The position numbers were made by a program, and so were the translations under genes. The notes beneath the pieces were generated by a model. That model was not told the DNA's origin and did no database searches. It worked only from the letters and a program-made list of their open reading frames with translations. From positions 1-44,936 of the forward strand of contig PCTW01000038.1 of NCBI GenBank assembly GCA_002786715.1: a stretch of DNA of 44,936 bases, read 5' to 3'. The stretch is from Bdellovibrio sp. CG22_combo_CG10-13_8_21_14_all_39_27 (lineage in GTDB: Bacteria; Bdellovibrionota; Bacteriovoracia; Bacteriovoracales; Bacteriovoracaceae). This document shows, piece by piece, positions 5,449 to 7,086 of this stretch. Position 1 is the stretch's first letter. Each line of letters starts with the position of its first letter.

Positions 5449-5715
5449 TTAAAAAAACCTACTGGGTGGATGCGAGAATGGGAAAGGTCCAACACTAGCT
5501 TGGGGGATTTCAAAATCCTCTCTGTGTTGCGGACTCTTTCTCAAGACAAGCTTGGGCCTCTCTAAAAAGAAGCGCATGATCCACCATCCGAACTTAAGTA
5601 ACTCATTACTGCTTATGTGCAATAACCTGACTAAGTTTCGAGCTGCTCTCAAACTATTTGAGGCCAACTCTTTTGACTCTTGGGCAAGAGCACTCATGAC
5701 TAAAAACTGTTCCAT
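5449..5715 (-). CDS. Small protein of unknown function upstream of the ABC exporter
   Basis: This 88-residue protein starts with ATG behind a clear Shine-Dalgarno sequence (TTAGGAG, about seven bases upstream) and ends 21 bases before the exporter gene on the same strand, so it is very likely a real member of that operon. It has a helical first half rich in Ala, Ser, Leu and Arg, a short hydrophobic patch around FGWWIMRFF (residues 42-50) that may be amphipathic and membrane-associated, and a proline- and phenylalanine-rich tail. I do not recognise the family. A role in regulating or assembling the exporter is only a guess from position. Confidence 0.7.
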   Translation of the reverse strand: MEQFLVMSALAQESKELASNSLRAARNLVRLLHISSNELLKFGWWIMRFFLERPKLVLRKSPQHREDFEIPQASVGPFPFSHPPSRFF

Positions 5716-5853
5716 ATAAAACTCCTAAAAAATTTAAGTTAGTAATTACCCAGAAAATCTGTGGTAAATAGTTGAATGTTGAGACGACAAGACGAACGGG
5801 CGCCTAGGTCAGTCTTGAGACCTCAAACAATCGTAAATGGTGTGATAATTTTG

Positions 5854-5976
5854 TTAGTGTTGCAGCTGATAGCTGAACGTAAACATGCCACGCGGTGGCT
5901 TAATTGTGATCAGTCCGGAGACAACCGCAATAGTATTTACGCCGATCGAAATCAGTGCCGTATTATTACTATTCAT
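5854..5976 (-). CDS. Small membrane peptide, 40 residues
   Basis: A short gene read on the minus strand: ATG at 5976, TAA at 5854-5856. GGAGGT lies six bases before the start, a near-perfect ribosome binding site, and a good promoter lies just upstream. The peptide begins MNSNNTALISIGVNT, has one hydrophobic segment at residues 7-25 that would span the membrane, and ends in a basic/aromatic tail (PPRGMFTFSYQLQH). It lies 138 bases before the 88-residue gene on the same strand, so it may head the exporter operon. No family is recognised. Support comes from promoter, ribosome site and membrane segment together; conservation is untested. Confidence 0.6.
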   Translation of the reverse strand: MNSNNTALISIGVNTIAVVSGLITIKPPRGMFTFSYQLQH

Positions 5977-6015
5977 GGTGCTACCTCCAGTCTTACTATT
6001 AGACTTAATGGTAGC

Positions 6016-6043
6016 AGAATAAACGAAATTAATTTTTTGTCAA
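6016..6043 (-). promoter_or_regulatory. Sigma-70-type promoter for the 40-residue peptide gene
   Basis: On the minus strand TTGACA (6043-6038) is followed after 16 bases by TATTCT (6021-6016). The -35 box is a perfect match and the -10 box matches four of six. The predicted transcript start is near 6009, giving a leader of about 33 bases before the ATG at 5976. Confidence 0.65.
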
Positions 6044-6093
6044 CCCCGGTATTATTTTGTTTTTGTCAGAGGTAAAAAGACATTTCGAATGAG

Positions 6094-7086
6094 TTAGCTC
6101 GCACACATTCCCTGCCAACCTTTAATTTGTTTTTCAACTTTTGACTGAAGAATTTCACAGCGAGGTGTATAAGAATAATAAAGTGAGCCACCTCTAAGAG
6201 TATCGATCACACTTGGAGCAATATCACTTTCAAAGGCAGGACATCCATATGATCTTCCCATAATATCTGAGACATCGTTGTACCAAGCTCCATGCATAAC
6301 GACTCCTTGAGCGAGAGCTTCATCGTTAACTTCAGGAGAGAGCCCAACCATTCTTAGTCCGTTATTTTTATTCGAATCAAGGTACGGCCATTCACGAACT
6401 TGTTTTCCATTAACAGACTTCATTCGTTCATGTTTCTTAGACTTGTAGAGTTCTTTGGTCATAAAGAATCCTGCTCGAGTCATATTTTCACGGCTAGTAA
6501 TATTGTTACCGTGATGACACTTGTCGATCATCCCATCGTGGTCAAGATCTCCAGATTTAGTACCATTTTTGTCTCCACTGCCGTGAGATACCTTTTCTTT
6601 TCGAACTTGCCCTGTTTGCATGTCGAGAATATAAAATCTTTTTTGATTTGATCGTTGAGAATAATCAGCAATTGAAACATATCTTTGCTTATTTAAATCA
6701 CCCTTATTTTTATTATAAAAGAAAAGGGCTTGCTTAAGAGGCTTTTCAGGGACTCCTGCTGATTTGAATTTATTAAAGTGCGTACAGACTGGTGTGTTTA
6801 TTTTGGCGGCTACGGCCTCAGCATCAGAAGCGGCTGGAGGGTGAAGCTCTGAACAGGTCTTGCAAATATCTCTTTGAGGATCAATTGCTCTAACAACTTC
6901 ATCGCTACTTGGAAAAGTTGTGCCATTTTTAGTTAAATTATCTAACTCGCCCTGGATGCGAGGACTTGCGGTGCTTTGGGCCGCCAAAGCGGCATAGTCA
7001 TTGCCCATTTGATCGCCGTCGGTAACACAACCAGCTGAGAACGAAATTATAAATGAAAATAATAAAAAACTTCTTCTTAACACCAT
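6094..7086 (-). CDS. L,D-transpeptidase-like lipoprotein (YkuD_2 type murein enzyme)
   Basis: The 330-residue protein begins with a lipoprotein signal peptide ending FSAGC, so it should be lipid-anchored in the envelope. The catalytic region near the C-terminus shows VMHGAWYND followed by GRSYGCPAF, the His and Cys motif of L,D-transpeptidases of the murein-associated YkuD_2 family; the cysteine of YGCPA is the expected nucleophile. Such proteins act on peptidoglycan stem peptides, although this subfamily is poorly characterised. A DHDGMID segment in the middle resembles a calcium-binding loop. I chose ATG at 7086, with AGGG eight bases upstream, over the GTG at 7095. It is transcribed alone, divergent from the GNAT gene. 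Confidence 0.85.
   Translation of the reverse strand: MVLRRSFLLFSFIISFSAGCVTDGDQMGNDYAALAAQSTASPRIQGELDNLTKNGTTFPSSDEVVRAIDPQRDICKTCSELHPPAASDAEAVAAKINTPVCTHFNKFKSAGVPEKPLKQALFFYNKNKGDLNKQRYVSIADYSQRSNQKRFYILDMQTGQVRKEKVSHGSGDKNGTKSGDLDHDGMIDKCHHGNNITSRENMTRAGFFMTKELYKSKKHERMKSVNGKQVREWPYLDSNKNNGLRMVGLSPEVNDEALAQGVVMHGAWYNDVSDIMGRSYGCPAFESDIAPSVIDTLRGGSLYYSYTPRCEILQSKVEKQIKGWQGMCAS

Follow-up and report, generated by a model that had tools for sequence, protein, structure and literature searches.

In amino-acid attenuators of the trp and his type, mutually exclusive pairings, 1:2 and 2:3, overlap the leader open reading frame (ORF). The leader considered here lies on the minus strand of contig PCTW01000038.1 from Bdellovibrio sp. 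CG22_combo_CG10-13_8_21_14_all_39_27 (assembly GCA_002786715.1), of which positions 1 to 44,936, the whole stretch analysed (44,936 nucleotides (nt)), are termed the window. It contains a 40-codon upstream ORF (uORF) and heads an operon of a gene for an 88-residue (88-aa) protein, an ATP-binding cassette (ABC) exporter gene and a DUF1854 gene. Comparison with the leaders of relatives indicates that it probably acts in cis as an attenuator-type switch of this operon, dependent on translation of the uORF. Its promoter, Shine-Dalgarno (SD) sequence and ORF are conserved, as are the constraint on translation as far as an internal motif and both exclusive pairings, all of them established computationally. 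As in the trp and his attenuators, exclusive 1:2 and 2:3 pairings overlap the ORF, but the window's family has neither a run of codons for a single amino acid nor an identified 3:4 terminator.

In Bacillus subtilis the BmrCD multidrug ABC exporter is preceded by the leader ORF BmrB, which has three alternative stem-loops; control by BmrB needs translation of the ORF and responds to ribosome-targeting antibiotics (PMC4191407). The window's locus resembles this system in layout, having a short, apparently translated ORF and alternative stem-loops ahead of an ABC exporter. However, the intrinsic terminator of BmrB is inside its coding region (PMC4191407), while no U-tract terminator was found in the window leader. 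In addition, the short ORF's own SD is a pairing strand in the window leader, the 88-aa gene intervenes and the exporter is of another type.

The uORF leader of a DUF1127 gene in Sinorhizobium meliloti has a ribosome-binding site (RBS) that folds with the uORF's own first codons; attenuation is attributed to Rho, and the proposed downstream Rho-dependent attenuation senses inhibition of translation (PMC12218461). The RBS of the window uORF also folds with its own early codons, according to swap tests, covariation and the predicted fold. The partner codons are 1-10 in S. meliloti but ~17-30 in the window's family, which also has an alternative partner and shows covariation across 26 species. 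Arrest peptides of the RAPP type and Pro-stop type lie upstream of sec and yidC, NAP-stop and NSP-stop stalling with the stop codon in the A site (PMC10987492). The uORFs of distant homologues of the exporter (described below) are similar in ending Pro-stop in 27 of 27 cases. In contrast, the window peptide ends QLQH, with neither a Pro-stop nor a RAPP-like ending, and the gene regulated would be an exporter rather than sec or yidC.

Conservation of the short ORF and its paired strands

The elements of the leader are as follows.

6043-6038, minus strand: -35 box TTGACA of the leader promoter, TTGAC being kept in 24 of 26 orthologous leaders
6021-6016, minus strand: -10 box TATTCT, separated from TTGACA by a 16-nt spacer
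near 6009, minus strand: predicted transcript start of the leader
5988-5983, minus strand: SD GGAGGT of the short ORF, six bases ahead of the ATG at 5976
5976-5854, minus strand: leader ORF (uORF), 40 codons with ATG start, frame 0 open to the internal motif in 26/26 leaders
5980-5990, minus strand: strand 1, the SD of the short ORF (GGAGGTAGC core 5988-5980), from fold, covariation and swap tests
5915-5931, minus strand: strand 2, codons around residues 16-21 (A-V-V-S), core 5925-5917, pairing with strand 1 or strand 3
5859-5896, minus strand: predicted strand 3, the downstream part of the uORF, able to pair with strand 2 (family swap test)
5853-5716, minus strand: remaining leader, structured, with an internal hairpin kept in the family (folding z and half:half swap)

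Of the 129 genomes surveyed in the class, 28 have an exporter orthologue. Upstream DNA was unusable in two (G140 and G069), and the remaining 26 leaders, the window's included, form the counted set. At all 26 readable loci a strongly SD-marked short ORF, 23-54 codons long, precedes the exporter, mostly by 350-700 nt and usually with the 88-aa gene between them. No leader has a stop in frame 0 between the start codon and the internal motif, while the other two frames are open in 2 and 3 of the 26. The best site for pairing with the SD is in frame 0 in 23/26 leaders (p=9e-9, anchor-free test), at a distance from the start that ranges from 12 to 30 codons and is mostly 17-21. Evolutionary conservation of the frame and the SD thus suggests that the short ORF is translated. 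A sequence-only reading of this DNA had proposed a genuine small gene, easily missed, and these counts uphold that view. The -35 box, the -10 box at 16 bases, GGAGGT six bases from ATG and the 40-codon ORF on which it rested were all found again on the minus strand.

The product of the 40-codon ORF is MNSNNTALISIGVNTIAVVSGLITIKPPRGMFTFSYQLQH. No credible homologue of this peptide was found in the 129 class genomes, phages or plasmids, not even where the exporter is 58-60% identical. DNA similarity searches gave nothing in E. coli genomes or in the rest of the window's genome. The sequence-only reading had suggested, as a check, that relatives retaining the exporter should conserve the peptide: the peptide search fails it, but the ORF, the SD and the pairing stand before every readable orthologous exporter.

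The strong promoter claimed for the ORF is at chance level when judged by its match alone, as nine promoter-like sites were found in comparison with 9.8 +/- 2.7 expected from shuffles. It is credible because it is conserved, not because of its own match score: TTGAC lies 5' of the short ORF in 24/26 orthologous leaders, mostly with a TA...T hexamer 16 nt further on.

Strand 2 typically reads GTG-ACC-TCN across the family. With strands 1 and 2 in a fixed register (24 distinct leaders), 79.2% of cells were paired versus 70.7 +/- 1.8 in shuffles, 29 cells showed double changes versus 12.6 +/- 2.6, and the covariation score was 0.330 versus 0.198 (each 0/500). Sliding the register reduced paired cells to 33-48%. 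For example, the SD GGAGACGAAC of G060 pairs with CTCGTCTC, while GAGGTAACC/GGTGACCTC in G016 contrasts with GAGGTAACT/AGTGACCTC in G063. Exchange of the 1:2 arms between species never equalled the native pairing, whether in the anchor-free test, over the whole family with anchors, or with 19 representatives (0/20000 each). Mean folding z was -2.67 for the 1:2 segment, compared with -0.02 at the starts of 88-aa genes and -0.62 inside the exporter. The pairing also exceeds that of synonymous-codon shuffles (mean z -1.85), which indicates that constraint on the 1:2 region at the RNA level persists even given the peptide. The predicted window transcript takes the 1:2 form as its minimum-energy fold, in which GGAGGUAGC pairs with GUUGUCUCC. 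RNAalifold found no structure on a MAFFT alignment of the leaders because the variable spacing of the SD misaligned the arm, so swap tests and the fixed-register count were used instead. Rfam covariance models gave no meaningful match to 11 loci, the window's among them.

Strand 3 was placed at most 65 nt past strand 2. In the 2:3 swap test the leaders' own energy was -347.9 versus -286.0 +/- 13.0 (0/20000), and with 19 representatives the native 2:3 pairing was equalled in 2/20000 swaps. Four control comparisons were null: the gap against strand 2 (p=0.24) and against strand 1 (p=0.68), strand 2 against the 88-aa gene's SD (p=0.90), and the geometry of 1:2 and 2:3 applied inside the exporter gene (p=0.39). 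By these comparisons, 1:2 and 2:3 are mutually exclusive pairings that overlap the ORF. The remaining leader is also structured (mean folding z -1.51; half:half swap p=5e-5). Pairing of strand 3 with the remaining leader was not supported either.

A narrow pattern used to look for more copies of the switch in the 129 genomes gave nine matches, and other copies are possible. Four of the nine are chance-like and five are family leaders, four of them known and one new, in G071 (L207, G071:C164, near 1478 of the reverse complement). That locus keeps the leader, with its SD and motif, and the 88-aa gene but lacks the exporter, and DUF1854 was not found in this 83%-complete genome. The G071 uORF is cut to 24 codons and ends about six codons past the motif strand.

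By eye, many leaders of the family carry an A[CA]ATTTA-like box 20-50 nt past the uORF stop, usually before the next hairpin.

Leaders of distant exporter homologues

Exporters of about 50% identity occur in Gemmatimonadota and Myxococcota, where DUF1854 follows and the 88-aa gene is absent. A plausible terminator lies directly before the exporter in 24 of 28 Gemmatimonadota loci, nearly all with a strong GC-rich stem. Twenty-seven distant leaders were compared, 24 from a phylum-wide scan (within L171-L197) together with L091, L094 and L097, all from metagenome-assembled genomes of Gemmatimonadota and Myxococcota/Deltaproteobacteria. In each of the 27, 28-34 nt separate the end of the short ORF from an intrinsic terminator downstream, and the encoded peptide finishes in proline. 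The endings are AP (20), EP (6) and SP (1), and the proline and stop codons vary. These uORFs look like candidate Pro-stop arrest peptides, which would act at the stop codon to control the exporter. That reading is tempered by uncertain start codons, by codon-position differences that carry no coding signature and by the negative swap test for an antiterminator given below.

Taken with the window's family, the distant leaders raise a broader proposal that is less likely than not. The exporter/DUF1854 system of Halobacteriovorax-type bacteria may be controlled by a translated RNA switch of a class not yet reported, the SD of a uORF being hidden or released by an in-frame stretch of its own coding sequence, and the same exporter family in Gemmatimonadota and Myxococcota may again be under short-ORF attenuation, with Pro-stop endings and intrinsic terminators. 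If this is true, faltering translation would switch the exporter on in several phyla.

A possible mechanism and its alternatives

Transcription from near 6009 would expose the strong SD, and the 1:2 hairpin may form first, co-transcriptionally, hiding it. Strand 3, made slightly later, would compete for strand 2 and so free the SD. The loading and progress of ribosomes on the short ORF would decide which hairpin persists, making the ORF a translation sensor, and the switch would set the amount of RNA, or the ribosome traffic, that reaches the 88-aa gene, the exporter and DUF1854. The output may be a choice between premature termination and readthrough, with termination intrinsic in the distant homologues and probably Rho-dependent in the window's family, where Rho is proposed because a U-tract terminator was not found. 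A stalled or missing ribosome, as when translation is impaired, would presumably switch the operon on. Membership of the intrinsic-terminator class of attenuators is not claimed for the window's family, since its U-tract terminator was looked for and not found.

Several observations weigh against such a switch. Terminator scans found no U-tract terminator in the window leader or in most of the family. No stall motif is evident in the peptides of the window's family, whose C-termini vary freely, and close pairs of leaders have no clear synonymous excess, thus giving no sign of selection on the whole peptide. The fold of the window leader is modestly above shuffles (z -1.50 and -1.26). In about five divergent leaders the anchors were picked with the pairing in view, which slightly favours the fixed-register covariation. 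The same flaw partly touches the strand-2 windows of the 2:3, 19-representative and control swap tests; the anchor-free swap and in-frame tests are free of it. Among the distant homologues, an antiterminator pairing of the uORF end with the 5' arm of the terminator was not supported in Gemmatimonadota (swap p=0.97).

The sequence-only reading offered three roles for the peptide: leader peptide, membrane partner of the exporter, or lead gene of a small-peptide export system. That the ORF encodes a functional small membrane protein, a helper or part of the exporter, appears very improbable. The ORF is co-directional with the exporter and the window peptide does have one hydrophobic stretch (best 19-residue Kyte-Doolittle mean 2.05), so the clean transmembrane segment that had been described stands for this species. 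However, a mean of 1.6 or more is reached in 3/26 orthologous peptides, the window's included, and by this measure the transmembrane-like segment is not conserved in the family. Past the motif the peptides share neither length (23-54) nor C-terminal ending, homology is absent even beside exporters of 58-60% identity, and the synonymous-codon shuffles point to constraint on the RNA even given the peptide. The 'membrane peptide' is therefore unsupported, since neither its transmembrane-like stretch nor its C-terminus is conserved and pairing with the SD accounts for the part that is. Export of the peptide itself as a secreted cargo is still harder to credit and the least probable of the alternatives. 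The ORF does head the operon of an ABC exporter and its sequence diverges fast, as those of secreted peptides may. On the other hand, the domains that Pfam finds in the exporter are ABC_membrane and ABC_tran, with no C39 peptidase domain, and the peptides have no conserved layout of leader and core; the one region that they conserve is the one paired with the SD of the ORF. The leader-peptide role is the best supported of the three through the conserved ORF, SD and RNA pairing.

Control might also be confined to the short ORF, with the hairpin acting as an RNA thermometer or limiting its own initiation and the peptide or its translation having a separate role. The hairpin does hide the ORF's own SD, and strand 2 was not seen to pair with that of the 88-aa gene (p=0.90). 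A simple thermometer would not need the conserved, exclusive 2:3 pairing, though, and conservation of the peptide stops at the pairing region, while the strict tie to one operon and the distant short ORF with its terminator point to control of the exporter; self-control is thus unlikely, if less so than the other alternatives. Strong covariation and folding signals, and more structured RNA past the ORF, could equally belong to a purely structural, riboswitch-like leader in which the ORF is incidental. This has little probability given that the SD, the start and the open frame to the motif are kept in 26/26 leaders, other frames being open in 2 and 3 of 26, and that the pairing site stays in frame despite a loop of variable length.

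If the leader is a translation-dependent switch, an orphan 40-aa 'membrane peptide' becomes a testable regulatory element, with the prediction that the exporter responds to changes in translation. Through the leader one could begin to learn the conditions under which this conserved exporter is produced. The case also shows that RNA covariation together with frame conservation, in place of peptide similarity, can support the reality of short genes without sequence homologues.

Genes of the operon and its surroundings

Downstream of the leader, the order of 88-aa gene, ABC exporter, DUF1854 gene and a single terminator is as the sequence-only reading had given it.

5715-5449, minus strand: 88-aa gene, an ORF with the family ending ...HPPS
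5427-3178, minus strand: ABC exporter, 749 aa, GTG start; nearest NCBIfam model NF052233 CphA_assoc_ABC, below cut-off
3248-2718, minus strand: ORF of the DUF1854 gene (PF08909), by profile match
2712-2687, minus strand: predicted intrinsic terminator at the end of the operon

The best family matches of the exporter and DUF1854 proteins are NF052233 and NF052234, the ABC transporter and DUF1854 protein associated with cyanophycin metabolism, which form the same gene pair as the window's. Both score under their curated cut-offs (634.8 bits for the exporter against NF052233, cut-off 880). Cyanophycin synthetase (TIGR02068) was above cut-off in 0/39 genomes (the window's genome and 38 relatives), and a link of the exporter to cyanophycin was rejected on this ground. 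The literature library that was searched held no paper on DUF1854 and none on Halobacteriovorax with a leader peptide.

A YkuD_2 (L,D-transpeptidase-like) gene lies upstream on the same strand; its end, at 6094, is some 50 nt away from the -35 box. Transcription of this gene may read through into the leader, since no terminator is predicted in the interval 6044-6093.

The 88-aa protein has no match in Pfam or NCBIfam. Its family is conserved but has no name; 20 members were aligned, and they share an HPPS motif at the C-terminus. Genome G022 (L004) yielded no 88-aa gene, and its short ORF is just 229 nt upstream of the exporter. The AlphaFold2 model of the window's protein (mean pLDDT 84) has a long helix (residues 2-51), a small beta hairpin and a low-confidence tail.
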